Below, piece after piece: positions 14,886-47,247 of a stretch of 64,000 nt of DNA. The stretch comes from Corylus avellana (lineage: Eukaryota; Streptophyta; Magnoliopsida; Fagales; Betulaceae). The stretch is taken from assembly GCF_901000735.1 (NCBI RefSeq), contig NC_081544.1, positions 11,883,350-11,947,349 of the forward strand, written 5' to 3'. A program made the position numbers and the translations under genes. Each line of letters begins with the position of its first letter. Position 1 is the stretch's first letter. Below the pieces are notes generated by a model that did not search any database, was not told the origin of the DNA, and worked only from the letters and a program-made list of their open reading frames with translations.

Positions 14886-15165
14886 CTGGTTCTGCGATCG
14901 AGCGCAAGTGGAGTGCGGTCGATTGCAAAAGGTCAAAAACCTACTGGTTCCGCGATCTAGCGCATGACCAATGTGCGTTCGAGCACAAAATGTCGAAAAC
15001 TTACTGTTACTGCGATCGAGAGCAAGTGGAGTGCGATCGATTGCAAAAGGTCAAAAACAAACTGGTTCCGCGATCGAGCGCATGCCCAATGTGCGTTCGA
15101 GCACAAAAGCTCGAAAACCTACGAGTACTGCGATCGATCGCACATCGTGTGCATTCAAGCGCATA
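14886..15165. repeat. 117-bp higher-order repeat with GCGATCGAGCGCA palindromes
   Basis: Units start at CTGGTTCTGCGATCGAGCGC (14886) and near 14944, 15003 and 15061. The 58-bp spacing alternates between two unit types, giving a 117-bp period (14886 to 15003, 14944 to 15061). A final palindrome (TGCGATCGATCGCAC) lies near 15128. It sits just inside the CACTA subterminal region and carries the palindrome type found in the LTR families. Confidence 0.8.
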
Positions 15166-25079: not shown

Positions 25080-26459
25080 TGTTGTGCAAATACCTACCTA
25101 AATTAATAGGAAAATAATTGTACATTTAAACTCGCAAGTGCTCAAGGTCAAAACAGTAGCATAGAGTGCAAGTACGAGATCATTCCCATGAGGATTGGTA
25201 AATTTTGATTCAAATTAATTTCAGTAAACAAAACAAGATAATAGGTTGATTTTTGATTGAATAATGATAAAAGGTAGGACTTTGATATCCATCACTAATC
25301 ATACTTAGATAAAATAACAATATTCCAGTGATCCAATCATATTATGAATACTTAATACTTGCCAACCTAAGGGTATGGGTGTCTACTCCTTAAGCTATTG
25401 ATCTCCATAAGCAACAAATTAAGCATGGGTGTCTACTCTAATTCTTTTCTTCCTTAAAGGATTTAGCATAGGGGTCTACTAAGTTGTTCTTTAAGAAAGC
25501 ATAAATCTGTGAAAATTGACAAACACATGAGGCCTAAGGTATGAGTGTCTACTCCTAGTTCCCCATATTGATTAACCTAAGAACTTGGTGTAAGATTCTT
25601 TTGTTACTCTATTAAAGCCAGGACTCGATCATCCAAATTGATTTAACTAACTAATCCATACCACATGCATATGTTGATCAGGCAAACACATATGAGGAAT
25701 TCAATAAAACAAGAATTAATCAAGTTAATCATCACAATATGATTATCACAAAGGCGCCAATATTGAAATATTAAATAAACATAATTAGGGCTTCAATTTA
25801 GCCCTTCTAAGTAGTTTAGTTATACATGAGTTTGATGTTAAAATCTTCATAAAATAAAATAAAGAGGAAAAGAATAAACCCAAAAACTTGAACTTGAAGA
25901 GCTCCAATTCTTCTCCTTGGAACTGTGTATCTATTCTAAAGGCTTAAAGGTCTATTTATAGGCCTTAGAAACACTCTTGAAACCCTAAAAATCATAGCTT
26001 TTGTGTTCTAAGTTGCCTAGGGTTTTGAACGGGTGAAAAGGAGAACTTTCCAAAATAGGGCGCTGCTGCCTTGCTCCACACGCACGGGTGCGCTTGATCA
26101 CAAGTATGCGATCAATCGTTTGTGTTGGGCGCCTAATCGCAGGTGCGATTGAGGCTGCTTCTTGTGCGCATGAGCGCGAGCCTTGCTCGTCTTGGCTTGG
26201 ACCGCTCTAGTAGTGTGCTCGAGCACAGTAATGCTATGATCGATCGCACTATTAGAACCTTTTGCTTGACTCAAACCTTCTAGCCTTTTCCCAACTTTGT
26301 CCTTTAAGCCTGAGACTTCCAGAAATTTTTTCTTTTCTTCCAAAAGCCTACAAAAACACAGAAAGCACATAAAATAACTAAAATAACATAAACTAACAAA
26401 ACTAAGGAATTGACAAATGTAAGTTAAGGGCTAAAATATGAATATTTTGACACTTAACA
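25080..26459 (-). repeat. 3' LTR of the reverse Athila-like element (1380 bp)
   Basis: Begins TGTTAAGTGTCAAAATATTC on the reverse strand and ends CACAACA. The reverse-strand TATA box TATAAATA is at 25953-25960, and palindromes of the GATCGAGCGC type lie at about 26085-26250, roughly 125 bp upstream of it. Confidence 0.9.
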
Positions 26460-27721
26460 CACCCCCAAACTTACATATTGCTAATCCCTTAGCAATACGA
26501 AACTAAAAAAAAATGAAAAAAAAGAAGATATATCCATCTTTCGTGGGATGTACGATTGCATTTAGCGTATGCAACAAGCCTTTTAAACCCCTAGGAATTC
26601 CCTAGAGGACGAGTGAAGTCTCGTGAAGGTTTTTCAGGAATGTTACCCACAAACATTATGCACAGGTTCATGTTATTCAAAACTCAAGTGTCACTCAAAA
26701 TTATGATTTTCATTCAATAGCAAGCTTAAAAAGATAAACTCCATCTTCTCAATGAATTGGAATCTTAAAGTTTAATCACTTACAAATGATAGGTTAAGGC
26801 ATCACAAGTTCGAAACAATGTAAAGTGAACTAGCACACAAATATGAAGCTTCCAATTATTTCCAGTGTGCAATGTCCCAATATCTCAAAGTTCACTAAAA
26901 TCCTCATTAGAATGAATAACTATGGCATAACTTTTTTTCTTTATTTTTTTATTTTTTATTTTTTATTTTTATTTTATTTATTTTTTATTCAGTCATGTTG
27001 TTCGTGTTTTGTTCCCTTAAGCTTTCCTAATTGACCCATGTAACAAGTGTTAGGCCAATAACTCCAAAACTAGATGGTTTTTGGGCATTAGGTGTAGAGA
27101 CACCCCTAAGGACTTACTAACTTGAGTCAAAAAAGCTACAAAACCAAACTAACCATGACACTAACCAAATCAAAATTCGTCACCTTTTGACGCGAACACT
27201 TAATGCTTTGAGACAAGAGGTCTAATAAATCATTTAGTTTCACCCAAGACATAGAAACACACACATCAGACTTTCATGTCATACCCCACAAATTATGTGC
27301 TAATTTGCTTGTATAGATGAGATCAAACATGTGAATTCTCAACTGCGTCAAACAAGTAACCAAACTGAAAAATTCTATCATCAAATCATGCGTTCAAAAT
27401 TTTATGCTCACCAATAAAAATCAAATTACAATTTTTAAGATCAATCAAAATTTTAAGACAAACGTGAACATGTATATTATTCAAAAATGGGACAAAGTGT
27501 GTGTAAATGTGTCTACCATACCCCCAAACTTAAATTATACATTGTCCCCAATGTGTGTATAACATGTAAAGATCTTACCCGAGAGATGGTTGAAACTGGC
27601 TGGAATAGGTATGGCTTGGAGCATACCCCTGAACTTGAACTGAAGCACACTCGTCCTGTGGGGTGCCTCCCATGAGCGCTAAGTTTAACGTCTTCAGCCA
27701 GACTGTGATCCTTCTTCAGTA
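26460..27721 (-). other. 3' noncoding region of the reverse Athila-like element
   Basis: Matches 44590-45997 of the forward element in reverse orientation (CCCCCAAACTTACATATTGC; GGTGTAGAGACACCCCTAAGG). It includes the polypurine tract next to the LTR and, at 27660-27703, the conserved block that starts about 19 nt after the integrase stop. Frames in this stretch look fortuitous. Confidence 0.7.
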
Positions 27722-30260
27722 CTATTGTTCTTCATATTGGACAGATTGGAGTGCCAAATCTTGTGGTGTCAAATCTTCAACTCTTGGTGCAAAGTTTTCA
27801 ATGTATGGCTTCACTCTGTGTCCATTCACCTTGAATGTCTGATTCTTCTGTGGACTATGGACCTCAAAAGCTCTATGAGGGAACACTTTGGTGACAAAAC
27901 AAGGACCAAACCCTCTAGACTTAAGCTTGCCAGGGAAGAGTCTTAGTCTTGAATTGTAGATCAACACCTTCTATCCCACATAAAACTCCTTCCTGATTAA
28001 ATGCTTATCATGATATGCTTTGGTTCTTTCCTTGTAGAGCTTGGCATTCTCATATGCACCACACCTCAATTCCTCAAGTTCATTTAGTTGTAGCTTCCTC
28101 TTATCACCAGCTTGTTTCATGTCAAAGTTGAACTTCTTGATGGCCCAATACGCTCTGTGCTCCAATGTTGTTACAAATATCTACCTAAAGTAATAGGCAA
28201 ATAATTGTATGTTTAACTCGCAAATGCACAAGATCAAACGATAGTATAGTGCAGCAAGTACGAGATCGACCCCACGAGGATTGTTGATTTTATTTTAGAA
28301 TTAATTAAAATATCAAAATTGTCACTAGATTAATATTGATAATATGGAAAGAAATAAAGATAAATAAAAGGTAAAGGTAGGGCTTTGATATCCACCACTA
28401 ATAATGTTCAAATAATATAACAATATGCCAATGATCCAATCATATTATGAATACCTAATGTTTGTCAACCTAAGGGCATGGGTGTATACTCCTTAAGCTA
28501 TTAATTTCCCTAAGCAACGAGTTTGGCATGGGTGTACACTCTAACTCTTTTCTTTCTCAAAGGATTTAGCATGGGTGTATACTAAGTTGTTCTTTAAGAA
28601 AGCATGATTCTGTGGAAATCGACAAACACATGAGGCCTAAGGCATAGGTGTATACTCCCGGTTCCCCATATTGATTAACCCAAGAACCCGATGTGGATTT
28701 CTTTTGTTACTTTTATTAAACCCAGGACTCGGTCATCCAAATTGGTTTAACTAACTAGTCCATACCAAATGCATATGTTGATTAGGCACACATATATGAG
28801 GAATTCATGAAAGCGGGAATTAATCAAGTTAAATATCACAACATGATCATCATCACAAATGCGCCAATATTGAATATTAACTAATCATAACTAGGGCTTC
28901 AATCTAGCCCTACTAAATAAATTAGTTACACATAAGTTTGATGTTAAACATCTTCATAAAATAAAGAGAAAGGAAAAGAATAAACCCGTAACTTGAACTT
29001 GAAGAGCTCCAATTCTTCTCCTTGGAAATTGTGTCTATCCTAGACGTTTAAGGGTCTATTTATAAGCCTTAAGAATACTCTAGAAACCCTAAAAATCTTA
29101 GGGTTTAAGCCCTAGTTGGCACTAAGTTACAAAACCCTAGAATTTGCACTTTCCATAACAAGGCTGGCGGCTGACTTGGCCATCATGCATGGGTGCGCTC
29201 AATCGCAGCCCGTGTGCGATCGATCGCAGCCTATGTACAATCGATCGCAGGTCTACGATTGATCCTCTTTGTGCTAGCGCTCAATCGCAGGTGCCTTGTG
29301 CTTGTGGTCCTCGCCTGTAGTGCACTCGATCGCAGCTCCCCTGCAATTGATCACACTACCAGAGCCTTCCATATTCTCAAAATAGTTCTTTTAAGTCCAA
29401 AACTTCTGAGATTGCTTCATTTTCTTCCAGTGTCCTACAAAATCAAAGAAAACACAAAAAAGAACTAAAATGACATAAATTAACCAAAACTAAAGGATTA
29501 ACACATGTAAGTCAAGGGCTAAAAATATGAATATTTTAGCTCTTAACATCCAAGTCCACTGGTAGATGACATGCTTTCCTAAAGACCAACCGATATGGGG
29601 ATATACCGATAGGCATCTTGTATGCAGTCCAATAAGCCCATAGTGCATCATTCAAGCGCAAAGACCAGTCCTTCCTGTTAGGATTCACTGTCCTTTCTAG
29701 GATGCTTTTGATCTCTCTATTACTTATCTCCACTTGACCACTGGTTTGAGGATGGTATGGAGTGCCAACCTTATGTGTGGTCCCATACTTTTTTAACAAA
29801 GAAGCAAAGGCATAATTGTTGAAATGGCTACCCCATCACTAATTATTGCCCTCGGCGTCCCAAAACTAGCAAAGATGTTTTCCTGCATAAACTTCACAAT
29901 CACTTTGTGATCATTAGTCTTTGAGGGGACAGCCTCAACCCATTTAGACACATAATCCACACCCACAAGAATATATAAATAACCATATGAGTTAGGAAAT
30001 GGACCCATGAAGTCAATACCCCATACATCAAAGATCTCCACCACTTGAATATTTTGCAATGGCATTTGATTTCTAGATGAGATGTTACCTATCCTTTGGC
30101 ATCTATCACAAGAGCTGCAAAAGAGAAAGGCAGCTTAAACGCATTAGGCCAATAAAAACCAAATTGTAATACCTTAAGAGTTGTTCTCTTGGCCCCAAAG
30201 TGTCCTCCACAAGCAAACTGATGGCAATGCTACAATATGCTCAAATGCTCCTCCTCTGAG
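27722..30260 (-). pseudogene. Integrase region of the reverse Athila-like element, split by a solo LTR
   Basis: Reverse strand from about 30260: a zinc-binding N-terminus with HCHQFACGGHFGAKRT and a later CDRC pair, then the core with [15 protein letters not shown] (first catalytic Asp) and AIISDG (second Asp), followed by [18 protein letters not shown] (Glu). The C-terminal part ([42 protein letters not shown]) lies at 27722-28160, beyond the inserted LTR 28166-29548. Other damage includes a frame break near 29800 and a stop before VLIYNSRL. Integrase would join cDNA to the host chromosome; this copy is dead. Confidence 0.85.
28166..29548 (-). mobile_element. Solo LTR (1383 bp) inserted in the integrase
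   Basis: Flanked by TCCAA at 28161-28165 and 29549-29553. On the reverse strand it begins TGTTAAGAGC and ends GTAACAACA, and it belongs to the same family as the surrounding element's LTRs. A reverse-strand TATA box is at 29057-29064 and palindromes (TGCGATCGATCGCA type) at 29193-29350. The internal part was lost by LTR-LTR recombination. Confidence 0.9.
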
Positions 30261-30299
30261 ACACACCTTCTGATGATTTGATCAAGGCAGAATTTGAGA

Positions 30300-31700
30300 A
30301 GTTAGGGATCATCCCAATGGTAATGTCTAGATATAGACATCAACCTCTTCCTTTCTTGACTAGACATACCTAGAGGAAAAACATTGGCAGTTATATAATT
30401 AACAATATCTACATACCATGGAAGTTGGACCTCAATTGCAAACAACTGTTCACCTTGGAAATTTTCATTCAATGGAAGCTCATCTCCTTCTTCTTCATGA
30501 AGTATCTTGGATAGGTGATCTGCCACCACATTCTCAATGCCCTTCTTATCTCTAATCTCAAGGTCAAACTCTTGCAATAATAGTACCCATATGATCAATC
30601 TAGGCTTTGCATCTTTCTTAGCAAACAAATATCTCAAAGCAGCATGGTCAGTGAATACTATAACCTTAGAACCAATCAGGTATGATCTAAACTTCTCCAA
30701 AGCAAATATGACAGCTAATAATTCTTTCTCAATAGTAGAATAATTTAGCTAAGCATCATTCAATGTTCTAGAAGCATAATAAATAGCATGAGGTACCTTA
30801 CTGATTCTTTGATATAAGACAACTCCCAAGGCAAAGTCACTGGCATCGCACATGAGCTCAAATGGAAGGCTCCAATCAGGTGCCATCATTATTGGTGCAG
30901 ACGTGAGCAGCTTTTTCAGTGTGTTGAAAGCAGTCATGCATTATTTAGTCTATTCAAACTTGGAATCCTTGGCTAGCAAAGCACAAGAGGGGTCTAGAGA
31001 TCTTGGAGAAATCCTCGATGAATCTTTTATAAAACCCGGCATGTCCAAGAAAGCTTCTTACACCCTTTGCTATCACAGGAGGAGGGAGTTTGGAGTTGAT
31101 GTCAATCTTGGCCTTATCCACCTTAATGCCCTTGCTGGAAATGGAATGACCCAACACAATGCCTTGTTGAACCATGAAGTAGCATTTTTCACAATTGAGC
31201 ACTAAGTTGCATTCTTCACATCTCTTGAGGACACTCTTCAGATGATTGAGGCATTCATCAAAATTAGAACCAAAAACACTAAAATCATCCATAAATACCT
31301 CAATAAATTTCTCCACCATATCTGAGAAAATGCTCATCATGCATCTTTGAAAGGTGGCTGGTGCATTGCATAGTCCAAATGGCATCCTTCTGTAGGCAAA
31401 TGAAGGTGGTCTTCTTTTGGTCCTCTGGTGCTATTGTAATCTGGTTGTAACCACTGTACCCATCCAAGAAGCAGTAATATCTATGGCTAGCCAACCATTC
31501 TAGCATTTGATCAATGAAGGGCAGGGGAAAATGATCTTTTCTTGTCACCTTGTTCAGCCTTCTATAATCGATGCATACCCTTCAACTAGTGGTTATTCTT
31601 GTAGGTATCAGCTCGTCATCTTCATTCTTCACCACTATGAGCTCACTCTTCTTTGGAACCACTTGAACTGGACTTACCCATTTACTGTCTGAGATGGGGT
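30300..31700 (-). pseudogene. Reverse transcriptase and RNase H of the reverse Athila-like element
   Basis: Reverse strand. RT blocks run right to left: KDHFPLPFIDQMLEWLA and CFLDGYSGYNQI at 31390-31548, MPFGLCNAPATFQRCM at about 31385, the catalytic VFMDDFSVFG (MDD form of the Y-X-DD box) near 31290, and FLGHAGFYKRFIEDFSKI near 31030. RNase H follows ([29 protein letters not shown] at about 30520-30640). The RT frame is broken near 31380, 30940 and 30745. The order PR-RT-RH-IN defines a Ty3/gypsy element, and the MDDFSVFG form fits the Athila lineage. Confidence 0.9.
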
Positions 31701-31815
31701 AGATAATGCCAACATCCAACAATTTCAATACCTCCGCCTTGACTACCTCCTTTATGCGTGGGTTGAGTCTACTTTGTGCATCCCTGATTGGCTGTGCTTT
31801 GTCTTCAAGGAAGAT

Positions 31816-32711
31816 TTAACGCATGCATTTGGCTGGACTGATCCCCTTGATGTCAGTAATAGACCGTCCTAAAACAGTTTTATGCTCTCTAAGAATTCTC
31901 AACGGCTTCTTTTTTTCCCCAAAACTTAGATTGGCGGCAATTATCACAGGTAGTGTCTGGTTTTCTCCCAAATAAGCATATGTCAGATGCTCTGGCAACT
32001 GCGTCAATTCCAAATTTGGTGCCTGGACAATAGAAGGGACAAGAGTAGTATTAGTAGGCATAAGAGTCTCAAAGGGAGGGCTGCACTTACTTGGATGCTT
32101 TGAAGAGGCCTTAAGAAGGTGCACGGTTTCAATGATGTCATCAATAACATCTTCAAATTCTAGCTCATGTCCTACCTTGTGAAACTATGGGTGAGGGTGG
32201 CCTCCAATGGATCAATGTGATGGACCTAAAATACTTTCTCAACAACACTGTGAATCATACAGACATTAAAGCATTCCTGATCATCTTGGGGTACTTTCAA
32301 TGCATCAAATATTCTAAATTATACCTTCTCACCATTTACCTTCATACTTACAGTACCCTTTTTAACAGAAATTTTTGTATCAGTAGTTCTCATAAAGGTC
32401 TTCCTAAGATGATGGGTAAAGGCAATGGCATAGGAGATTCTTCCATATCCAATACAATAAAATCAATAGGTAAAATAAACTTACCTACCTTTACCAAGAC
32501 GTCCTTAAGTATACCTCTTGCTTTTTTGATGCTTTTGTGTGCCAATTGCAAGGTGATAGAAGTTGGTTGTAGCTCCCCCAAACCTAGCGTTTCAGATATA
32601 ATGTATGGCAGCAAATTGACCCCTGCTCCTAGATCCAGCAATGCATGCTCAAAAAGATGGTTTCCTATCCTACAAGGGATTGTAAAACTTCTTGGATCTT
32701 TTAGCTTTGAT
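31816..32711 (-). pseudogene. Protease and PR-RT linker of the reverse Athila-like element
   Basis: Reverse strand 32390-32641 contains a retroviral-type aspartic protease: DLGAGVNLLPY with the DLGA active-site form seen in Athila, then LADVL-like and IDFIVLDMEE blocks, ending in ILGRPL. The linker at 31816-32124 has APNLELTQLPEHLTYAYLG, typical of the stretch just before Athila RT. Upstream of 32711 the sequence joins the truncated LTR, so gag and the protease N-terminus are lost. Confidence 0.8.
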
Positions 32712-32717
32712 CTAGTT

Positions 32718-33596
32718 GCCCATGTTGATTAATGCAAGAACTCGAGGTGAGATTCTTTTGTTACTCTATTAAACCCAAGACTCGATCATTCAAATTGATT
32801 TAATTAACTAATCCATACCACATGCATATGTTGATCAGGCAAAAAAAATGAGGAATTTAATAAAACAGGAATTAATCAAGTTTAGCATCACAATATGATT
32901 ATCACAAAGGCACCAATATTGAAATATTAAATAAACATAATTAGGGCTTCAATCTAGCCCTACTAAGTAGTTTAGTTATGCATGAGTTTGATGTTAAACA
33001 TCTTCATAAAATAAAGTAAAGAGGAAAAGAATAAACCTGAAAACTTGAACTTGAAGGGCTCCAATTCTTCTCCTTGGAACTGTGTGTCTATTCTAAGGGC
33101 TTAAGGGTCTATTTATAGGCCTTAGGAACACTCTAGAAACCCTACAAATTGTAGCTTTTGTGTTCTAAGTCACCTAGGGTTTTGAACGGGTGAAAAAGAG
33201 AGCTTTCCGGAGTAGGGCACTGCTGCCTTGCTCCTCACACACGGGTGCGCTCGATCATATGTGTTGGGCACTTGATCATAGGTGCGATCGAGGCTGCTTC
33301 TTGTGCACACGAGCACTCACCTTGCTCATCTACGCTTGGACCTCTCTGGTAGTGCGCTCGAGTGCAGTAACGCTATGATCGATCACATTATCAGTACCTT
33401 TTGCTTGACTTAAATCTTCTAGCTTTTTCTCAACTTTGTCCTTTAAGCCTGAGACTTCCAAAAATACTTTGTTTTCTTCCAAAAACCTACAAAAACACAG
33501 AAAATATAAAAGAATTAAAATAGCATAAACTAACAAAACTAAGGAATTAACAAATGTAAGTTAAGGGCTAAAATATGAATATTTTGGCACTTAACA
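32718..33596 (-). repeat. Truncated 5' LTR of the reverse Athila-like element
   Basis: Matches the first 880 bp or so of the LTR 25080-26459 (reverse-strand start TGTTAAGTGCCAAAATATTC). Palindromes lie at 33243-33390 and a reverse-strand TATA box near 33111-33118. Its second half, with the primer site, is deleted. Confidence 0.85.
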
Positions 33597-33601
33597 CCAC
33601 A

Positions 33602-33800
33602 ACCTCAATTATCATTGGAAGACACATTCAAAGCGTTCATATAGTCATATAGCCATACCATACAAGAGCTTAGGAATTATACTATGGTAAATAGCCAAGC
33701 GATTCAAGAGATGAAAGGTCTCACTCTAGTCAACACTCAACCAATTGCAAGGTTGGAGGTCGGTCATCTTGTTGATGACAGTTCTAATTCTTTTAGAACT
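33602..33800 (+). pseudogene. Continuation of the old gag fragment
   Basis: After the target duplication the plus strand resumes the gag-type frame broken at 25079 (LSLEDTFKAF, then NSQAIQEMKGLT and TQPIARLEVGHL), typical of the Athila gag region that follows the zinc-knuckle area. It ends where a further LTR-type repeat begins. Confidence 0.6.
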
Positions 33801-33801
33801 T

Positions 33802-35194: not shown

Positions 35195-35198
35195 TTTT

Positions 35199-38038
35199 TG
35201 TTGTGTCAAACTATCAATAATAAAATTACCATTCGCAATCAAACCAATCCTTGTAGGATATGGCTATAATGAGTGTGTAAAACCTCAAGGACTATGCTGT
35301 CATTGTTATTAAGCTTGTCAGGATTAATTCTAGATTAATTCAAAGAAGATTGATTTGTTTTGTCTTTATAAACAAAATGCATAAAAGTAAAAGTAAGATA
35401 AATTGTATTGAGCAGAAGAATAGGGGGTTGATTTTACTGCTAACCGCATAATGGTAAGTGCCAAAATATTCATATTTTAGCCCTGAACTAATATGTGTTA
35501 ATTCCTTAGTTTTGATAGTTTATGCTATTTTAGTTCTTTTATGTGTTTTCTTTGTTTTTGTAGGCTTTTGGAAAAAAAGGAAGCAAATCTGGAGGTATTG
35601 GGCTTAAAGAGCGAATTTGGGAAAAGCTGGAGACTCTGGTAGTACGATCGATCTCAGGGGACCTGCGATCGAGCACACTACAAGCAAAAGACTAGATGAG
35701 TGCAGCCTTGTGCTTGTGCGCACACAAGGAGACTCATCTGCGATCGAGCGCACACGGGTTGCGATCGATCTCACCCATGCGCTGGAGAATAGTCAGCTGC
35801 AGTTACAATTCCTTTTCCTTCCATGTTAAGGGTATTCCAATCCCCACTTATAATAGGACTAAACCCTACGAATTTTCTAGGTTTACTAGGGGTTCTAGGA
35901 TTTCTAGAGGTCTATAAATAGACCTCTTAGCTCCTAGGAAAGGGTGTGGAGAAAGAGACACATGCTCTGGAAAGGAACTAAAGGCTAGATCAAGAGGAGT
36001 TTGGGTTTTTCTTCTCTTCCACCTTTTATTTTTGTTATGTAGTTTATATTTTAATTGGGGCTAGATTGAAGCCCTAGTCATGTCTATTTAGGATTTAAAT
36101 ATTGGCGCATTTGCTACAATTATATTTTGGTGTATTTAACTTGATTAATTCCCGTTTTCTTGAGTTCCTCATATGTGTTTGCCTGATCAACATATGCATG
36201 TGGTATGAATTAGTTAGTTAAATCAATTTGGATGGCCGAGTCCTAGGATTAATAAGAGTAACAAAAGAAATCCACATGAGGTTCTTGGGTTAATCAACAT
36301 GGGGGACTAGGAGTATACACCCATGCCCTAGGCCTCATGTGTTTGTCGATTTTCACAGATTTATACTTTCTTAAAAAACAACTTAGTATACACCCATGCT
36401 AAATCCTTTAAGAAAGAAAAGAATTTGAGTATACACACATGCCTAATTTGTTGCTTAGGAAAATCTATAGCTTAAAGAGTATACACTCATGCCCTTAGCT
36501 TGACAAACATTAATTATACTGGTATGATTGGCGCATTGGCATATTGTTATCTAAATTAGCCTGATCAGTGGTGGATATCGAAACCCTAATCCTTTTTAGT
36601 TTTAGTTTATCTTTTATTTTATTTCTTTATTTTAATTCAATCGTGACAATTGAATTTTATCTGTTTAATTAAATAGGAAATTACTTCTAAACATAATTTA
36701 CCAATCCTCGTGGGAATGATCTCGTGTTTCTTGCTATACTATTGTTTGATCTTGTGCACTTGTGAGTAAAACGTACCAAGTATTTCACTATTAATTTAGG
36801 TGGGTATTTGGCACAACACATAACAATGGTTAATCATAAATTAACAAGGAAAAGTCATATTTTGCATGATATAGGGCTCGTCTCACTCGAGTAGTCAAGA
36901 AAATACCATAATTTAAAAATAAGTGTAATCCATCTTCGGTAGTCATGTACCATCTGCCTAACCTCTAGATGCGGTATGGTTTGTCTTCCCTAGGTATGGA
37001 CTATCAAATCGCTTAATCAGTTATACGCATTCAAGGGATAAGCATAACTCATCTACGGGTCGTACGAATTGTCTACCCATATTACACTAAGCTAGGGTGT
37101 AGAGTAATTCACCGTCCTTGGGCGTGACCTATCAAACCCTCTTGATCATGTGTCAGTTAAAACTGTTGTATAACAATCATTCATATAATCATAGAAAATA
37201 TGAAGGATTGAGTTCATTCAAGATAAAAAGCTTTCTAAGACAAGAGAATAATTTCATAATGATTGAATATAAACTTTAAAACCAAATTTCTAAGTTATAC
37301 AACCATCATACATATAGAAAATTCCTAACTTAAAATACAATTAAACCATCATTACTGGGAAAGGGCTACATCAACACCCTATTACGAGTTTTGCTGCTCA
37401 TGGTGGTGCAAGAATGGCCTCCTACCATGTTCATCTTCTTTTCAACTTTTCAAGCATCCAAAAAGATATTTTCTGTCTAAAACTAAGCACCCTTTCTTCA
37501 TGGCTTTGAAGCCTATTTATAGGGTGTACAACAAACCCTAGAAGGCCTAGGAATCCAAGAAAAATCGTACTTCAGTCTCCCTAGATTTTTGTCCTTATAT
37601 TTCGAGGCGATTTTAGCATAACAAACATCTGAATTAGGAAATGTGTATTTCACAATGATTTGTATTATTTTGAGTTAGATTTCCATTGCAATACACGAGC
37701 TGAAAGTTATGATTCAAAATACTAAGACATGTGCAAAATCCAAAAATTAATCTAATCCAATTTTGACTTCAATTAGAGAAATTCCGATTTAATCATTTCC
37801 TTGATTTGATTAAATTTAACCACATCATATAAGTAATCTATTATGATTGTTTAGGCTTAACCACATCTTCTAGGTGTTTTCAAAGTGTGCTTTAAGCCCA
37901 AATTCAATGGAATTTCTTGCATCATTATTAAAAACCAGAAAACACTAAAACAACACAGAATCAAACAAATAACAATGCTAAGGAATTAACATATGCGACT
38001 TAAGGGGCTTGAATGTTCAACATTCGGCGCCTACCACA
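35199..38038 (-). repeat. Family B LTR, reverse strand, interrupted by a solo Athila-type LTR
   Basis: The two parts 35199-35451 and 36819-38038 are one LTR of a second family, also present at 48460-49740 and 51244-52790. The reverse-strand start reads GTAGGCGCCGAATGTTGAAC; the end contains TCCTTGTAGG(A/T)TATGG in plus orientation. A reverse-strand TATA-like CTATTTATAG (plus orientation) is at 37512-37521. Upstream of it (37540-37640) no GATCGAGCGC palindromes are seen. Confidence 0.75.
35452..36818 (+). mobile_element. Solo LTR of the Athila-like family (1367 bp)
   Basis: Flanked by CATAA at 35447-35451 and 36819-36823; the uninterrupted target can be read near 48700 (CCGCATAACAATGG). Starts TGGTAAGTGCCAAAATATTC and ends GGCACAACA. 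Palindromes CGATCGATCTC and GCGATCGAGCGCAC lie at 35640-35775, and the TATA box TATAAATA is at 35913-35920. Confidence 0.9.
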
Positions 38039-38258
38039 TGTACATCAATTGTTACGACACTATAAACAATTGATGAATCGCGTGGTCCTGTTCGATGTAT
38101 GGCACAACCTTGCCTATACCCCAACATATTAACTTGAAGTGTCCATACTTCTCATGACCAGGACATGTCATTTGAGGTTCCCAGTTCCATTTATGACTAT
38201 GAACAACAAGTTTTATAAGTTGCACATACCATTGAGTATGATCTTCTGTGATACGCAA
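38039..38258 (-). other. Unidentified segment between family B LTR pieces
   Basis: A reverse-strand frame of 68 codons has two Cys (CPGHEKYGHFKLIC) and Trp- and His-rich parts. I do not recognise it. It is not found in the other family B copies, so it may be a leftover of internal sequence of a family B element. Confidence 0.3.
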
Positions 38259-38665
38259 TCAAAGGATAAGTATAACTCATTTTTTGTTAGTATGAATTGT
38301 TTACCTAAATTACAGTAAACTAGGATGTAGAGCGATTCGTCTTTCCTAAGCATGGTCTATCAAACCCTCTTGATCATATGTCAGTTAAAACTGTTGCATA
38401 ACCATCATTCTTACAATCATAGAAAATAAGAATGATTGAGTTCAATCAAGATAAAAGGCTTTCGAAGACAAGATAAGAATTCTATCAAGATTTAACATAA
38501 GCATTAAAGATCAATTCTCATAGTTATACAACCATCATGCACATATAGAAAAACCCTAAATTAAAATACCATCAAACCATTGTTACTTGGAAAGGGCTAC
38601 ATCAACTCTCTATTACAGAATTTGTTGCTCATGGCGATGCTAGGCTGGCCTTCTGCCATGTTCAT
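38259..38665 (-). repeat. Family B LTR part, left of the forward Athila-like element
   Basis: Begins in the middle of the family B LTR (AAGTATAACTCAT block) and runs to the TTCAT target at 38661-38665. The same LTR continues at 47253. It is therefore the host site of the element 38666-47247. Confidence 0.75.
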
Positions 38666-38756
38666 TGTTAAGTGCTAAAATATTCATATTTTTAGCCCTT
38701 AACTTACATGTTTTAATCCTTTAGTTTTAGTTAATTTATGCTATTTTAGTCCCTTT

Positions 38757-40238
38757 GGCTTCGTTTGGCAAAAGCCATGGCCCAGACAGTGTCTGGGCCA
38801 TTGACCGGTTTTTTTGTCAACATTTGGCATATTTTTTACCATATTGCCCCTCTTTCAGAAATTTTTCCAGAGACATAAATCCCGCGCTTTCCCCTTTCTA
38901 TGCGGTCCTGGCAAAAAAGGCATATTTTATGCCTTCTATTAAAATGCTGACACCTCACCTAATACACTTTAAGAAAATAAAACCAAAACACTAGATAACA
39001 ACCAAAAAGAAAACAAGCAGAGCTATAGGCCGGAAAGAGAGAAATTTCCGGTGGAGGAGAACCATTTTCCGCCGGAACCAGAAAAACCCACCAACAGACA
39101 CAACTCAAGAATTCACAAAGAAACTATATCAAGAATTATCGCAAATCAAGAATCCCTTAATGAAAACTTTTTTTTGAAAAAAAAAAAAAAAAAAAACCAT
39201 TAAAAGAATAGAAATAAAAGAAAAGAAAAGGTTTTGATGACCCACCTGGATGCCTTAGCCTCCGAAATGGCCATCGAAGAACCCACTGCCCAGTGATTGT
39301 AAATTTGTGATATTTTTTAGAAGATGAGCAACAACAATTCCGATTAACAGAGATTTACGATCAGCAATTTGGATCAAGGTTTTGTTTCTACGTGGGAAAG
39401 AAGTAAGTTGGATCTAGCGTGGGTTTCGTCTAGACCCAGCGTGGGTCAAGCCGTGACCCACGCTGGGTCGCGAGTCACGGCCCAGCGTGGGTGATCGATG
39501 TGACTCAGCCGTGGGTCGACCGTGACCCAGTGACCCACGTGGGTCTGGTGAACCACGGCGGGTCTCAGGCCGAGACCCAGCCGTGGGTCTGCTCTGGTCT
39601 CTCTCCTTCTCTCTCTCACTATAGACCCAGCAGTGGGATTTTCTCTCTCGTTCGATCTTGTGTTTACGTTGTAGATAATAAGGTGGATGAACTTTTGGAG
39701 TTATGTGGAAGTAGTGATAATAAGGTGGCAAAAGGTGATGATCTTTTGATGGAAAGCTTTGATAATGAGAATGGGAGTTCAAGTGATGAAATTAACGATA
39801 GCCAAAACGTTGATACTGATGAAATCGTGGGTCCAGGAGAGTTGATGAACGGGATGGGTGGGTTGAGAATTTCAGAGAGGCTTACAGTTGAAACTGATAG
39901 CTCAAGTGCGAATTCTGTGCCGTCAGATAGCGGGAGTTCACAGCCACCTCCTCCACCTGTCCCATCCTCGAAACCATTAGCAGGAAACTCAAATTCTAGG
40001 AGAGTTGTCTCAGGAAATTCAAATGCTGTGCGGATTGGGTCATCCAGAAGGGCAGTTGCCTGGCCTGTTTTTTCAAAGAAGCCAAACAAGAAGACACTGA
40101 ACAGTGTCCGGGAGCTGGAGGAAAAGAGTACAACGCTGAAAATTTTTGGAGAAACAAATGAAGGATAATCCTGTAATTTCACATCAGAGAAATGACTTAA
40201 ACAGTGTCTAGGCTAAGCCATGCCTTTTGCCAAACACC
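38757..40238 (+). mobile_element. TIR DNA transposon carrying a foreign ORF (Pack-type)
   Basis: The left end GGCTTCGTTTGGCAAAAGCC and the reverse complement of the right end (GGTGTTTGGCAAAAGGCATG) form imperfect terminal inverted repeats of about 25 bp. CCCTTT flanks both sides (38751-38756 and 40239-40244); if mismatches are allowed the duplication could be 8 bp, as in hAT elements. The uninterrupted LTR sequence can be read at 46070-46095. No transposase is present. Inside are GTGGGTC palindromes (39413-39560), a CT tract and the ORF described next. Confidence 0.75.
39661..40168 (+). pseudogene. Captured host coding fragment in the TIR transposon
   Basis: A frame open to the TAA at 40166 has normal protein composition: an acidic stretch (DNKVDELLELC, DDLLMESFDNENG), a Pro run (QPPPPPVPSS), Ser/Asn/Arg-rich sequence and a C-terminus with RRAVAWPVFSKKPNKK. 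It follows an acceptor-like TTACGTTGTAG near 39676, so it probably contains an exon taken from a host gene. The open frame extends upstream to 39491 through the GTGGGTC palindromes, which is unlikely to be real protein. I do not recognise the parent gene. The frame lacks stops, so the capture may be recent. Confidence 0.5.
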
Positions 40239-41494
40239 CCCTTTATGTGTTTTCCATGCTTTTGTAGGCTTTTAGAAGAAAATGAAGTAAATCTAGAAGA
40301 TTTGGGCTCAAAAAGAGAATTTTGGAAAAATTGGAGTTTCTGTAAATCTGGAAGATTTGGGCTCAAAAAGAAAATTTTGGAAAAGTTAGAGTTTCTGGTA
40401 GTGTGATCGATCGTAGGTGACTTGTGATCGATCGCACTATGATCGATCGCACCTGTGCGCTGGAGAATTCTAGAAGCTGCGGACAGACTCCCTTTCCTTG
40501 CACATTAGGGTTTTCCAAGTCCCACTTGTAATAGGACTAAAACCCTATGAATTTTCTAGGTTTACTAATGTAACAAGGACTTCTAAAGCCCTATAAATAG
40601 ACCTCTAAACCTTGAGAATAATCAAGCGGGAAAAGACACACTTTTGAAGGAGAAGAATTGGAGCTCTTCAAGTTCAAGTTTCGGGTTTATTCTTTTCCTT
40701 TATTTTATTTTATTTAATGAAGATGTTTAACATCAACTTCATGTGTAACTAATTTATTTAGTAGGGCTAGATTGAAGCCCTAATTATGTTTAGTTGATAT
40801 TCAATATTGGCACCCTTGTGATGATCTTGTTGTGATATCTAAATTGATTAATTCATGTTTTCATGAATTCCTCATATGTGTGTGCCATATCAACATGTGC
40901 GTGTGGTATGGACTAGTTAGTTAAATCAATTTGGATGACCAAGTCCAGGGTTTAACAAAAGTAACAAAAGTAATCCACACTGGGTTCTTGGGTTAATCAA
41001 TAAGGGGAACTGAGAGTATACACCCATGCCCTTGGCCTCATGTGTTTGTCGATTTCGACAGAATATATGCTTTCTGAAAGAATGACTTAGTATACACCAT
41101 ACTAAATCCTTTAGGAAAGAAAAGAGTTAGAGTATACACCCATGCCTAACTCGTTGCTTAGGGAAATCTATAGCTTAAGGAGTATACACTCATGCCCTTA
41201 AGTTGACAAACATTAGATAGACATAACATGATCAAAACATTGGTATATTGATATATTAGCTAAATATAATTAGTGGTGGATATCAAAGCCCTACCTTTTT
41301 ATTATCATCAAATCAAAAATCAATCTTTGTTTTGTTTTACTTTTGGAATTTAATTTTAGACAAAATTTAGCAATCCTCGTGGGAATGACCCCGTATTTGC
41401 ACACTATACTACTGTGTTGACCTCGTGCACTTGCGGGTAAAACATCCAATTATTTGCCTATTAATTTAAGTAGATAATAGAGACAACAAGTTTT

Positions 41495-41512
41495 TGGCGC
41501 CGTTGCCGGGGA
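41495..41512 (+). other. Primer-binding site for tRNA-Asp
   Basis: TGGCGCCGTTGCCGGGGA begins 7 bases after the LTR and complements the 3' end of plant tRNA-Asp (ending CCCCGGCAACGGCGCCA), the primer used by Athila-type elements. Confidence 0.9.
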
Positions 41513-41894
41513 TTGCGGCAAATTTTGTTTAGAATTATTTTCCTTTAGTTGTGTTCTTTTAATTTTCAATTTTAGATTTTGTTTTCTTTCTCTAATTTAA
41601 TTCTGTTTTTCTAATTTTTTTTCCGCAGTTCCTGTTTTGCCTCTGGAGGTGTGCTCGAGCGCCCAACCAGGGTGATCGAGCTCACCAATGCGATCGAGTG
41701 CACCTCACGGTGGGATCAATTGTACATCCAAAGAGCAGCACAGTTAATACACTAATTATAGATCTGATTTTTTTTTTCTTTTCTTTCATGCAGGGTCATT
41801 CAAGTCTGCATATTAGTAAGTTTTTATTTTTAATTTTATTTTATTTTTCCTTTTAATTTTAACTTCTTTTTGTTAGTTTATTTTATTTTCATAC
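41513..41894 (+). other. Untranslated leader of the forward Athila-like element
   Basis: T-rich leader with a palindrome cluster at 41650-41715 (GTGCTCGAGCGCC, TGCGATCGAGTGCAC) and a CAG acceptor-like site before the gag ORF. Similar leaders with palindromes occur at 24340-24420 and 53281-53530. Confidence 0.65.
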
Positions 41895-42551
41895 ATGTGG
41901 GGAGGCGTTCCGACACCCCATGCACCATGTTCATTATGCCATGACCCTTATCAATATGTTAGAGAATGTCCTTCAATAAGACAAATTTCTAACAAAGTTT
42001 TTGGGCATAAGAACACATCGTTCTCTAGACTGGGGAACGACCGCTATTTTGATTCTTGTAACCCAACATGGAGCCAACAGTCCAATCTCTCATGGCAAGC
42101 TCAAGCTCCCGGAATTCATGCTCAACAATCTCATGGACTGCAACATCACTCATATCAGCAATTCTATGATCATGCATATTCCTCTCAATCAGCTCCACAA
42201 CAGCAATGTCAGGCTGAACCACCTTCTCTTATAGATATGGTAAATACATTGGTTAAGACTACACAACAAGCATCTGAGGAGATGAAGTCCGACTTCAAAC
42301 CGAAAGGCAATAGTCTCAAAGAAGAAGAAGCATATCAAGAAGACCCATCTTCCACCTACTGGCCTCCACAATACCAAGAAGAGGAGCCATCTCCCATATA
42401 TGATCATTTGAATTCTTCTCCACATCAACAATATCAAGAAGAACCACCTCCTCCGAAAAGGTTTACCTTAGAAGAAGCAGTTGCTGCCTTAGAAAAACAG
42501 TATGCTGACTTTACAAAACATGTGGTAGCTCACAGTAGAAAAAATCTATAG
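41895..42551 (+). CDS. Gag-type protein of the forward Athila-like element (218 aa)
   Basis: Continuous ORF with a zinc-knuckle-like motif near the N-terminus (Cys12, Cys15, Gln20, Cys25: CSLCHDPYQYVREC). The His of the CCHC motif, present in the relative at 24614, is Gln here, so zinc binding is probably weakened. The rest is Gln/Ser/Pro-rich (QYQEEEPSPIYD, QYQEEPPPPKR) and ends in a possible helical segment (FTLEEAVAALEKQYADFT) as in Athila gag C-terminal regions. It is much shorter than normal gag and lacks the retrotransposon gag domain. Possibly translated but unlikely to assemble particles. Confidence 0.6.
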   Translation: MWGGVPTPHAPCSLCHDPYQYVRECPSIRQISNKVFGHKNTSFSRLGNDRYFDSCNPTWSQQSNLSWQAQAPGIHAQQSHGLQHHSYQQFYDHAYSSQSAPQQQCQAEPPSLIDMVNTLVKTTQQASEEMKSDFKPKGNSLKEEEAYQEDPSSTYWPPQYQEEEPSPIYDHLNSSPHQQYQEEPPPPKRFTLEEAVAALEKQYADFTKHVVAHSRKNL

Positions 42552-42639
42552 ACATCTGGAATTACCTTACAGTAGAAAAAATTCATTCCCTTTGGTGCAA
42601 GAGAAGGAAAGATTGTTGCTTCAAGTTTAAAGTACCACC

Positions 42640-42684
42640 GTCTGGCTGAAGATATTAAACTTAGCGCTCATGGGAGGCACCCCA
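42640..42684 (+). other. Conserved block after the pol position
   Basis: TCTGGCTGAAGA, TTAAACTTAGCGCTC and ATGGGAGGCACCCCA in order. The same block occurs again at 44537-44580 after the env-position ORF and at 27660-27703 (reverse strand) about 19 nt after the integrase stop. Both forward copies contain a five-codon mini-ORF (MGGTP then TAG). Confidence 0.7.
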
Positions 42685-42699
42685 TAGTATATCCTTTTT

Positions 42700-43400
42700 A
42701 TTTTGTTGTTTGTTTTATTTTGCTTGACTTTGTGTTTTATTTTACTTTAGTGTTTGAGTGTTTCAAGTCCCTGGTCATTTTTGTTACATTCTGTTACTGT
42801 GATTGAACGCACCCTAAGTGCGATTGAGTGCAGTAACCAAATTTTGGCTGTTTTACATTCTGTTAGTGCGATCGAGCGCACCATGTATGCGTTCGGGCGC
42901 ACATCACCCACACACGTACACCATTGCGCTAGTGTGATCGAGCGCACCATGCATGCGATCGAGCGCACTCGAGCAGTAGGCCACATAACCTATTTTAGGT
43001 CACTTTTCCCCCATTCCCCCTTCATTTTCCCCCGCGCCGTATACACCACCCCCACAACCCATCACTGCAACTCCACATTCATCGGCACACCACCACTTCT
43101 CCTCGCTTCCATTGGCCTTAAACAATCACCACCACACCTCAATTGCACCTACACGTGCCCATTCTCACCTGCGGCCACCACCATTCTCCCACCATCAACC
43201 TTCAAAACCCCGAATCCCTTTCGACCCACTCACCATTTTTATCATCATTTTCTGCAATTATGGGTGTTCATCCACCCACATTGCCTCTCTATGTTGGGTT
43301 TTGATATTTTGCAGGGGTTTTGGGCTATTGTTGCTGTGTTTTCAGAACTTTGGCCATCTCAGTGCACACCAGGTGTTTGACAGAATTCTCGAACCAGCAG
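42700..43400 (+). repeat. Upstream region of the env-position ORF with GCGATCGAGCGCACC clusters
   Basis: Palindromes GCGATCGAGCGCACC and variants recur at 42785-42975, followed by a C/T-rich stretch at 43000-43300. It matches 776-1480 and 1501-2015 in reverse. It may hold a promoter or splice site for the downstream ORF; none was proven. Confidence 0.6.
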
Positions 43401-43404
43401 TATC

Positions 43405-44525
43405 ATGCCAAAAACTTGGGCTTCATCTTCCTGGGCTCCGATACCCAAGCCACTTCTCCCCCGCCCACTTTTGAGGAGTGGGAGCTGCTATTTGAGACAA
43501 CCTTCACCATTCGGGAAGATTTTCAAAACCTAGAGGCGACTCAATTTGCGGTCGCCGAATTCAAGCGTCGGGGGCTCAAGAAGCATTTCAAACCGGTCAC
43601 CTCCATTGCCTACAGAAAATTGGTGATAGAGTTCTATGGCCACCTGTCCCATGATTACAACAGGCCGGCTGTCCTCTCTTCCAAACTGCAAGGCCGAGCT
43701 ATTGACTTGACAAGGGCCGACATTGCCGCTGCACTCCAATGCAATGATGAGCACCCTCCAGAAATAGCACAGCTTGCCGAGCAACCGCCCAGATTCTATG
43801 TGACAGAAATCATTGAGGACATGTGCCAAGGGCGATATGCCGATGCCCATCATAATGCCGGCAGCTAGTCCAAGTTACCTCAGCGGCTCTGGTTTGTGGA
43901 CTCCATATTGCACCGCAATGCTTTTCCCTTAGGGCACAAAACTCAGAGGCGGGATTAATTTCTCCAAACCCTCTACACCTTCTATAAAGGTGCCTAGTAT
44001 TCCATTCTCGATATCATTTGGATCCAAATTCACAATTTTTGGAATGGAGTGCACATTGGAGGAGCTGAATCCACTCACTCATGGGGACTACCTTTCCCAT
44101 ACTTAATCACCTACATCCTCTGGAAGAGGCATCAAGGGCACTGCAGCTGATGAGCCAGTCACTACTACCCCCATCTTTGGCATTCGCCAATGGAACAAGA
44201 GCTGCTCCCATATGCCCCGGGCACCTCCAACACCAGCAGCTGGTGCGGAAGAGAGTGAGGCCGAGCTGATGGCCGGAGATGAACCTGCAGCTGAGCTAAA
44301 AGCAGTAGAGGAGGAGGCCCCGATCATCTTTCATGCAGCACATTATTGCTCACTCAGTGAAGAAATGTCAGGCCTTCAAAGAAAGTTGGCTAATTAAAGA
44401 AGGGAGGCTCGGGAGGATATAGTCCTGATGGATAAAAGACTAGCAGCCTTAGAAGAATTAATGCAGTCCATTCTCAGCCAGTTGCCACCACCATCTGGAG
44501 CATCATCTTCTGGACAGCATTAAGC
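43405..44525 (+). pseudogene. Env-position ORF remnant (plant transposon protein domain)
   Basis: Starts MPKTWASSS at 43405 (MPRTRASSS in the copy at 775). A one-base loss near 43430 shifts the frame; the domain then reads FEEWELLFETTF, EFKRRGLKKHF, YRKLVIEFYGHL, AALQCNDEHPPE and FYVTEIIEDMC. A TAG at 43866 and further stops (including the TAA after QRRD near 43957, shared with the copy at 1-775) break it. The C-terminal part is Ala/Glu-rich with many stops to 44525. Function of the family is unknown. Confidence 0.7.
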
Positions 44526-45997
44526 AGGGACCACTGTCTGGCTGAAGACGTTAAACTTAGCGCTCATGGGAGGCACCCCATAGTTTAACGTTTTATTTTT
44601 GTTTTGTTTAGTGTGTTTTAAGTTAATCTTTTTATCTATCTTTAATTTTGTTTATTTTTACTTGTTTTTGGTGTTTTCTTATTTTGTAGGGACAAGTGTG
44701 CTTCTATCCAAGTTTGGGGTTGTGCTATGAGCCATGCTTTCCAAGACTATGTCGTCCATCTCCCGGGCACACTCTTTCCTTTATTTAGACACATTGGGGA
44801 CAATGTGTCATTTAAGTTTGGGGGTATGGGCACACATGGTGTTCAAACACACTTTGTCTCAATTTCATGTTATTTGTTTTGTATGCTTGTTTGTTTAATT
44901 GAAAAAAAAAATAATAATTTATGCTTGTTCATGTTAACCCTACAAATTTTAGTTAATCTAAAAGAATTATGGCTTGAATTCATCAATGAGCTTAAAATTT
45001 TGAACACATGATCTGATGAGTGAATCTGTTAGTTTGGTTACTTGTTTAGCACAGTTGAAAAATCACATGTTTGATCTAATTACACAAGCACATTCGAACA
45101 TAATTTGTGAGATATGACATGAGGTTTGATATGTGTGTTTCTGTATCTTGGATGAAATTGGATGACCTATTAGATGGACACCTTGGCATATATTTGAAAA
45201 AAAAAATAAAAAATTGATGAAATAAATGATCATTGATAAACTTTTCACTGAGTAACTGGACCTCTTTCCTTAAAGCATTGAGTGTTCACGTCAAAAGGTG
45301 AAAAATTTAGATTTGATCAATGTCATGGTTAGTTTGGTTTTGTAGCCTTTTTAACTCGAGTTTGTAAGTCCTTAGGGGTGTCTCTACACCTAATGCCCTA
45401 AAACCATCTGGTTTGGGAGTCATTGACTTAATACTTGCTACATGAGTCAATTAGAAAGCTTAAGGGAACCAAACATTGCACAAGCTGATAAAAAAAAAGA
45501 GAAGAGAAAAAGAAATCTACTAGGGTTGTTCATTCTAATAGGGATTTCAATGAATTTTGAGAGATGGAGACATTACATGTTGGAAAGATTTGGAAGCCTC
45601 ATAATTTTGTGCTAAGTTCACTTCACACTGTTTTCAAACTTGTGATGTTTTAGTATGTCCTTTGTAAGTAATTGAACTTTGAAATTCCAATTCATTGTGA
45701 AGATGAAGTTCATCTTTTTAAGCTTGCTAATGAATAAAAATCATGATCTTGAAGTGATACTTAATTTTTGGGGATAACATGAACTGTGCATGATGTTTGT
45801 GGGTAACATTTCTGGAAAACTCTCACGAGACTTCACTAGTCCTCTAGGGAATTCCTAGAGGTTTAAAAGGCTTGTTACATATGCTAAATGCAATCGTACA
45901 TCCCTCAAAAGATTGATTTATCTTTTTGTTCTCTGTTTTTCATTTTGTTTTTAGTTTTGTTTTGCTAATGGACTAGCAATATGTAAGTTTGGGGGTG
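44526..45997 (+). other. 3' noncoding region of the forward Athila-like element
   Basis: Starts with the second conserved block (44537-44580) and runs to the polypurine tract (GTTTGGGGGTG at 45987-45997). It is the forward counterpart of 26460-27721. Frames here look fortuitous. Confidence 0.7.
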
Positions 45998-47247
45998 TGT
46001 TAATTGCTAAAATATTCATATTTTTAGCCCTTAACTTACATGTTTTAATCCTTTAGTCTTAATTAATTTATCCTATTTTAGTTCTTTTATGTGTTTTCCA
46101 TGCTTTTGTAAGCTTTTGGAAGAAAAGGAAGTAAATCTAGAAGATTTGGGCTTAAAAAGAGAATTTTGGAAAAGTTGGAGTTTCTGGTAGTGTGATCAAT
46201 CGCAGGTGACTTGTGATCGATCGCACTGTGATTGATCGCACACGGGTTGCGATCGATCGCACCAGTGCGCTGGAAAATTCTAGAAGCAACAGATAGACTC
46301 CCTTTCCTTCCATATTAGGGTTTTCCGACTCCCACTTGTAATAGGACTAAAACCCTAAGAATTTTCTAGGTTTACTAGTGTAACAAGGACTTCTAAAGCC
46401 CTATAAATAGACCTCTAAACCTTGAGAATAATCAAGCGGGAAAAGACACATTTTTTAAGGAGAAGAATTGGAGCTCTTCAAGTTCAAGTTTCGGGTTTAT
46501 TCTTTTCCTTTCTTTTCTTTTATTTTATGAAGATGTTTAACATCAACTTCATGTGTAACTAATTTATTTAGTAGGGCTAGATTGAAGCCCTAATTATGTT
46601 TAGTTGATATTCAATATTGGCACCCTTGTGTTGATCTTATTGTGATATCTAAATTGATTAATTCCCATTTTCATGAATTCCTCATATGTGTGTGCCTGAT
46701 CAACATGTGCATGTGGTATGGACTAGTTAGTTAAATCAATTTAGATGACCGAGTCCTGGGTTTAACATAAGTAACAAAAGTAATCCACACCGGCTTCTTG
46801 GGTTAATCAACATGGAGAACGGAAGTATACACCCATGCCCTAGGCCTTATGTGTTTATCGATTTCGACAGAATATATGCTTTCCTAAAGAACGACTTAGT
46901 ATACACCATGCTAAATCCTTTAGGAAAAAAAAGAGTTAGAGTATACACCCTTGCCCTTAAGTTGACAAACATTAGATAGACATAACATGCTCAAAACATT
47001 GGTATATTGATATATTAGCTAAATATAATTAGTGGTGGATATCAAAGCCCTACCTTTTTATTATCATCAAATCAAAAATCAATCTTTGTTTTGTTTTACT
47101 TTTGGAATTTAATTTTAGACAAAATTTAGCAATCCTCATGGGAGTGACCCCGAATTTGCACACTATACTACTGTGTTGACCTTGTGCACTTGCAGGTAAA
47201 ACATCTAATTATTTACCTATTAATTTAAGTAGATAATTAAGACAACA
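45998..47247 (+). repeat. 3' LTR of the forward Athila-like element (1250 bp)
   Basis: Starts TGTTAATTGCTAAAATATTC and ends AAGACAACA. Palindromes at 46190-46265 (TGATCGATCGCAC, GCGATCGATCGCACC), TATA box at 46402-46409. It differs from the 5' LTR by point changes and a deletion of about 60 bp, so the insertion is not recent. Confidence 0.9.

Follow-up and report, generated by a model that had tools for sequence, protein, structure and literature searches.

In Ty1/copia Sireviruses, palindromic, CpG-bearing motifs form clusters ahead of the TATA box and, a second time, ahead of ENV; a role in regulating the activity of these elements has been proposed for them, and the motif is described as specific to Sireviruses, being absent from the classic elements compared (Bousios et al. 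2010, PMC2829016). In maize, the palindrome CACCGGACNNNGTCCGGTG, found through predicted RNA structure, is reported to outnumber all other motifs in both Copia elements and Helitrons, and Ty3 elements are said to lack a clear peak of structures of this kind (Martin et al. 2023, PMC10760457). Here we describe a 14-bp palindrome of European hazel, Corylus avellana, that recurs in Ty3, Ty1/copia and CACTA transposons, often as pairs of sites whose starts lie exactly 21 bp apart and frequently upstream of a TATA-like box. The stretch analysed comprises 64,000 nucleotides (assembly GCF_901000735.1, contig NC_081544.1, positions 11,883,350 to 11,947,349, forward strand), is referred to here as the window and numbered from its first letter, and contains, among others, two families of long terminal repeats (LTRs), A and B.

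The consensus of the shared palindrome is TGCG[A/C]TCGA[T/G]CGCA. Within the window, GCGATCGATCGC with at most two mismatches matched 43 times, compared to a mean of 0.33 and a maximum of 2 in dinucleotide shuffles, and a scan with TGCGATCGATCGCA returned 88 sites at 10 or more of 14 positions and 65 sites at 11 or more, while ten first-order simulations gave 7-10 and 0-2 sites each, respectively. Across the C. avellana genome (370 Mb, 12 contigs), the exact 12-mer core is present in 3113 copies and its reversed letter order in 2. A sequence-only reading of the window had reported palindrome clusters near the TATA box of seven LTRs; our counts indicate that these clusters are real and non-random, and we found both them and their TATA boxes (starts in Table 1) to within approximately 10 bp of where that reading placed them. 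Clusters are not restricted to those seven LTRs, as others begin at 1224, 5894, 14893, 41650 and 42798. Pattern scans of viral contigs for the motif gave 0 matches. HIP1 of cyanobacteria (GCGATCGC) has overlapping letters and is also palindromic, but it is bacterial and shorter, and we claim no relationship.

Beyond the window, we analysed 20 stretches of C1 around listed exact cores (L001-L020), four further short C1 stretches around cores, and a motif-blind sample of nine 6-kb stretches (54 kb) at round-number positions on other chromosomes. Clusters of at least two sites were grouped by single linkage on matches of at least 80 bp between their 700-bp flanks, which divided 52 clusters into five groups without an 80-bp flank match between groups. 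Among the 171 gaps of up to 100 bp between adjacent sites in this set, 66 were exactly 21 bp, the runner-up being 37 bp with 17 gaps; the window alone contributed 18 gaps of 21 bp out of 45. The 55 unique 21-bp pairs in the window and L001-L020 contain 38 different 7-bp spacers, and since spacers vary at a constant pitch, the length of the spacer is better kept than its sequence. Pairs at 21 bp are present in the A/B-type Ty3, L001-type Ty3 and CACTA groups. The motif-blind sample contained pairs in two of its nine stretches, with three of four gaps at 21 bp, a single weak site in another stretch and none in the remaining six. The outer flanks of a pair also complement each other (0.44 compared to 0.33 when permuted, with 0 of 1000 permutations reaching the observed value), and thus the pair behaves as a unit. 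The flanks in question, CTGGTAG...CTACCAG, are a property of pairs, with the exception of a single L012 site that also bears them. As a general property of single sites, a palindrome longer than 14 bp was rejected, since their flanks are not palindromic outside the 14-mer (0.245 vs 0.292).

We found that the five groups span transposon superfamilies. The largest group, 36 clusters in A- and B-type Ty3 LTRs and linked internal sequences, includes L025 and L029 from the motif-blind sample and owes its Ty3 assignment to an RT_RNaseH match that lies between A-type LTRs of the window. The second group contains six clusters of L001-type Ty3 elements; L001 itself has two flanking LTRs that are 95.3% identical, matches to RVT_1, RT_RNaseH_2 and Retrotrans_gag above the cut-off, one to Ty3_capsid below it, and an integrase zinc-binding domain. 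The third group comprises five clusters of Ty1/copia elements of the L003/L012 type, in which L003 and L012 carry RVT_2, integrase and copia-type gag (below the cut-off in L003), L013 was placed through flank similarity, and the window contributes the cluster at 5937, which belongs there through its similarity to the LTR stretch of L012 (Table 1). This last cluster was also considered as a CACTA end, which was ruled out because its sequence matches a Ty1/copia LTR. The fifth group is L007 alone, a Ty1/copia element; downstream of its cluster come a TATA-like box, the primer-binding site TGGTATCAGAGC and a gag of the copia type.

The fourth group consists of four clusters in the ends of CACTA DNA transposons, whose protein TnpA binds subterminal sites at both transposon ends. 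Transposon tips, CACTACAA or TTGTAGTG, are found at 15801-15808 in the window, at 4259 in L019 and at 4230 in L020, in each case no more than 1 bp from the ends of their mutual alignments; L009 has no CACTACAA tip. L020 contains CACTACAA at 4230 and TTGTAGTG at 7073, with a site cluster (4949-5182) near the first tip only, and since the bases beside its two tips show no matching duplication, the tips may not belong to one element. A further CACTACAA at 11341 in the window was dropped as a candidate tip, its surroundings being coding-like as judged by eye. The five groups are not proven to be independent in origin, as flank matches between them are undetected at this sensitivity only. Furthermore, several of the groups share the short outer flank CTGGTAG...CTACCAG, a recurrence that suggests copying of cassettes.

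In four of the six LTR types, the array is followed by a TATA-like box at a distance of approximately 125-150 bp (167 bp in one copy), the exceptions being L025 and the L003/L012 copia elements. In the A family, 15 of the 18 LTR copies (window and fetched loci) have TATAAAT 128-140 bp from the end of the last site, at either 128-130 or 136-140 bp; in the other three (L011, L014 and L015), the searched interval contains no TATAAAT. Measured in element orientation, TATA[AT]A lies 130, 126 and 148 bp from the cluster edge in three B copies, 127, 127, 149, 129, 128 and 167 bp from it in the six L001-type clusters, where the orientation of L032 and L033 was deduced from cluster similarity and the TATA side, and 126 bp from it in L007. 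Additional TATA[AT]A matches occur at 39 bp in L006 and 238 bp in L032. By chance, 12.8% of random positions have a TATA[AT]A at 110-160 bp on either side.

The sequence-only reading took the fixed TATA distance in A and in a supposedly unrelated family B as a sign of selection. Our data do not support this argument. The six A LTRs in the window are one family, alignable over their whole length, and a fixed distance among them is therefore expected; the 5' end of the B LTR matches A at 65% identity across 182 bp and the LTRs align, so that the agreement between A and B in TATA spacing was probably inherited. Common descent in this region, which the same reading had named as something that would refute its idea, is sufficient to explain the spacing, and we therefore do not take a constant distance within A and B to indicate selection. 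Sites were found in four of the seven B copies examined (B2, B5, B6 and B7, the last cut by the end of the window); B1, B3 and B4 have no site at 10 of 14 positions, and the 5' end of B3 aligns poorly. The idea of an upstream cis element is nevertheless still the best reading, since the TATA spacing of L001-type Ty3 and of L007, neither of which has detected flank homology to A or B, supports it separately.

As in Sireviruses, the palindromic motif of hazel occurs in several copies ahead of the TATA box within the LTR; this holds for 15 of 18 A-family LTRs and not for L025 (TATA at 40 bp) or the L003/L012 copia elements. The Sirevirus Tnd-1 motif, ACAATCGATTGT, has an ATCGAT centre in common with the hazel motif, and the two lack the CGG-CCG core of the other 12 Sirevirus motifs given in PMC2829016. 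Unlike the Sirevirus motifs of that paper, one hazel motif is common to Ty3, Ty1/copia and CACTA carriers: L001 and A-type elements are Ty3, CACTA is a DNA transposon, and the Ty1/copia elements L003, L007 and L012 are without genus placement. The exact 21-bp pairing of hazel sites is absent from the description of the motifs in section 9 of PMC2829016. The additional Sirevirus motifs precede ENV (PMC2829016). The hazel clusters at 42798-42967 and 1224-2002 precede open reading frames with PF20167 matches below the cut-off, which may or may not be env-like. Similar to CACCGGACNNNGTCCGGTG in maize as reported in PMC10760457, a single palindrome is found across transposon superfamilies of one genome, although its sequence and the superfamilies differ. 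Relative to these accounts, the Sirevirus motifs are a clear precedent, from which the hazel case differs in its sequence, its carriers and its exact pairing. A literature search for the motif letters, for motifs shared across superfamilies and for hazel gave no report of the motif among the papers listed, and the main text of the genome paper on the sister species Corylus heterophylla (PMC8054262) contains no word starting with "palindrom".

We hypothesize that the arrays are bound by a protein, probably a transcription factor of the host, that recognizes specific DNA sequence as a dimer and raises transcription of the transposons that carry them, and we give this explanation an even chance. 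Each 14-bp palindrome would bind one dimer, and because a 21-bp pitch corresponds to two helical turns, the two dimers of a pair would sit on one face of the DNA and could co-operate. The array would act from U3, upstream of the TATA-like box, on transcription of the element. Dimers that co-operate over two turns would account for palindromy without co-variation of the half-sites, for exact spacing with free spacer sequence, and for the frequent position upstream of the TATA box. Ty3, Ty1/copia and CACTA elements may have come to share the motif through exchange of a short cassette or through separate selection for the same factor. A stronger version, which we consider less likely than not, is that hazel Ty3, Ty1/copia and CACTA transposons are wired to one switch, a phased palindrome pair recognized by a single host factor and passed between families as a cassette of approximately 50 bp. 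If so, regulatory cassettes would move between transposon superfamilies, and one regulator would govern an entire community of mobile elements. A highly specific genome-wide motif in at least five groups is a concrete probe of how plant transposons of differing origin are activated or recognized by the host; the paired site could be used as bait for the protein, and expression, methylation and small RNAs could be contrasted between families that have the motif and families that lack it.

Several observations weigh against the proposed activator. The L003/L012 copia group has no exact 21-bp gap (its gaps being 22, 37, 42, 70 and 80 bp), those of L007 are 23, 46 and 33 bp, and many of the 21-bp pairs within groups are related by descent, so that their counts are not independent trials. 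The TATA box is 167 bp away in L033 and 40 bp away in L025, an A/B-type LTR, and none of the five clusters of the L003/L012 group has TATA[AT]A in its own orientation within approximately 260 bp (one was searched over 117 bp only); TATA matches at 109 bp in L012 and L013 were rejected because, given the orientation of these two elements, they are situated on the wrong side of the cluster. No TATA[AT]A is present within 260 bp of either internal cluster (41650 and 42798), and the CACTA cluster in the window is at the end opposite the N-terminus of the plus-strand transposase-related open reading frames, if these belong to the same element. Within LTRs, motif columns have an identity of 0.797 compared to 0.786 in the remainder. 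Finally, the DNA-binding factor itself is putative.

An alternative is that the palindromes act as folded RNA in transcripts, either for the element itself or as a trigger of small-RNA silencing, as has been argued for maize Sirevirus palindromes (PMC10760457). RNA from the clusters would indeed fold well. Across 110-nt windows, 9 of the 15 clusters in the window fall below -40 kcal/mol, compared to 51 of 2899 windows overall, and their folds are more stable than those of shuffled sequence, with z-scores of -1.3 to -6.5 (60 dinucleotide shuffles each; 12 of 15 at -2.5 or lower and the other three at -1.3 to -1.7); pairs with complementary outer flanks also make longer dyads. However, the compensatory changes between arms that are expected of a conserved hairpin were found neither in half-sites nor in the arms of pairs. 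Complementarity of half-sites in 215 unique sites was 0.803, compared to 0.806 for permuted halves (694 of 1000 permutations being at least as high), a test whose power is restricted by the site definition (at most two mismatches) except at positions 5 and 10, which are free under it and gave 0.544 vs 0.534; for the arms within pairs the values were 0.826 vs 0.838. In addition, the symmetry of single sites stops at the 14-mer, and a constant 7-nt spacer of changing sequence is no obvious requirement of a hairpin. We therefore regard a role as folded RNA as rather unlikely. The claim of the sequence-only reading that CG-rich inverted symmetry is kept is not supported, since half-sites vary independently and the divergence is mainly CpG decay, with CpG transitions making up 112 of the 209 changes at defined positions; its suggestion of a hairpin loses weight because the arms do not co-vary, even though the RNA is predicted to fold. 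By analogy with the account of maize Copia elements by Martin et al. (PMC10760457), hairpin-triggered silencing could occur as a side effect of the arrays. Apart from these comparisons, the predicted fold at 39359-39535 reaches -62.7 kcal/mol in 110 nt and overlaps a 244-residue open frame (39434-40168) without a Pfam match, and the folds at 59005-59180 (-61.0 kcal/mol) and 62591-62790 (-69.2 kcal/mol), which rank with the most stable in the window, lie in duplicated B-family DNA at a distance from the clusters of Table 1.

A less probable explanation still is that the motif has no function and is a short repeat that recombination, nested insertion or template switching has spread among transposons and that is left to neutral decay. 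The near-equal conservation of motif columns and remaining LTR, the dominance of CpG transitions, the recurring flank that points to cassette copying, the three B copies without a site and the two LTR types without TATA spacing are all consistent with this. Neutral decay accounts less well for a 21-bp pitch that holds though spacers differ, and for the recurrent position of the sites, ahead of a TATA-like box, in four of the six types of LTR. Furthermore, alignment of A LTRs shows that a CpG is more often shared when it lies inside a site than outside (63%, 1803/2853, vs 46%, 1905/4139), both in the six window copies (121/212 vs 117/306) and in twelve fetched copies from loci chosen for the exact core (940/1397 vs 1032/2012); these comparisons are non-independent and the cluster region is poorly alignable, and we consider CpG sharing weak support for constraint.

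The study of the VANC-binding motif is reportedly by Hosaka et al. Similar to the VANC-binding arrays of Arabidopsis VANDAL elements, the hazel arrays are made of a short, dense motif with variable copies in non-coding transposon DNA; according to the account in PMC5735166, the VANC motif has a single orientation, is rare outside one DNA transposon family and is bound by a protein that the transposon encodes, whereas the hazel motif is found in five flank-homology groups. It is improbable that the hazel arrays are sites for a transposon-encoded protein (CACTA TnpA-like, or VANC-like and anti-silencing) that other families later exploited: dense sites in a CACTA end beside subterminal repeats, the precedent of VANC targets as short motifs repeated in non-coding regions (PMC5735166) and the TATA-less internal clusters, which fit anti-silencing at least as well as a promoter role, favor it, but the VANC21 motif is described as rare outside its own family (PMC5735166) while the hazel motif spans superfamilies, and Pfam gave only gag/pol domains on the open reading frames of L001 (4 of 11 listed) and L012 (3 of 3 listed), no search having been aimed at VANC- or TnpA-like genes.

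The positions of clusters and associated features in the window are collected in Table 1.

Table 1. Palindrome clusters and associated features in the window, in order of position
Feature	Position	Strand	Details
Two clusters, 1224-1430 and 1768-2002	1224..2002	-	duplicated relative of the 42.8-44.2 kb region; precedes a minus-strand open reading frame with a below-cut-off PF20167 match
Cluster in Ty1/copia LTR-like remnant	5894..6113	+	73% identity across 312 bp with the stretch of copia element L012 that bears the LTR; sites spaced 37-43 bp
Ten sites in CACTA transposon end	14893..15163	.	pairs 21-23 bp apart; transposon tip TTGTAGTG at 15801-15808
CACTA subterminal repeats, TTAGCGTCCAC type	15200..15808	.	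between the ten-site cluster and the tip
Palindrome cluster in LTR A1	26089..26248	-	LTR 25079-26459; leftward TATA at 25960
Palindrome cluster in LTR A2	29194..29355	-	LTR 28164-29548; low end has three sites 21 bp apart; TATA 29064
Palindrome cluster in LTR A3	33246..33387	-	LTR 32712-33597, truncated; TATA 33117
Palindrome cluster in LTR A4	35643..35773	+	LTR 35452-36818; two 21-bp pairs; TATA 35913
Palindrome cluster in LTR A5	40402..40451	+	LTR alignable over 40242-41488; TATA 40592
Internal-region cluster	41650..41724	+	approximately 150 bp past primer-binding-site-like TGGCGCCGTTGCCGGGGA at 41495
Three 21-bp pairs, internal	42798..42967	+	between the same two LTRs as the 41650 cluster; upstream of an open reading frame with a below-cut-off PF20167 match
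Palindrome cluster in LTR A6	46191..46261	+	LTR 45998-47248; TATA 46402
Degenerate cluster, B-family LTR fragment	47479..47568	-	spacing 38 bp; TATA 47349
Degenerate sites, B-family LTR	54645..54740	+	TATATATG starts 126 bp downstream
Degenerate sites, B-family LTR	60290..60363	+	TATATATG starts 148 bp downstream

At the start of the window, a run of 20 N at 1481-1500 separates two motif-bearing repeat copies (950-1475 and 1501-2048) that are 85% identical, and the duplication may therefore be an assembly artefact. The 1768-2002 cluster adjoins an AT-rich array of imperfect repeats (2070-2860) based on GATCGATTGATCGTGATA and similar GATC-cored words, inside which weak relatives of the motif score at 2245-2728. 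In the A and B families, the end of an A-type LTR meets the start of B-family sequence at 36818/36819 and at 47248, at differing points of the B sequence, and B-family units are tandemly duplicated over 53782-64000, with 57032-60416 and 60637-64000 being 96.7% identical. Plus-strand, CACTA transposase-associated open reading frames occupy 6723-9756, with PF13963 in 6723-7667 and DUF4218 in 8324-9250; among the matches listed, the nearest relative of the DUF4218 frame is 84% identical and has a JGI source. Chitinase class I domains (Pfam Glyco_hydro_19) are found in L019 (849-1490) and L020 (7676-9357), within approximately 4 kb of a CACTA end and its palindrome cluster.

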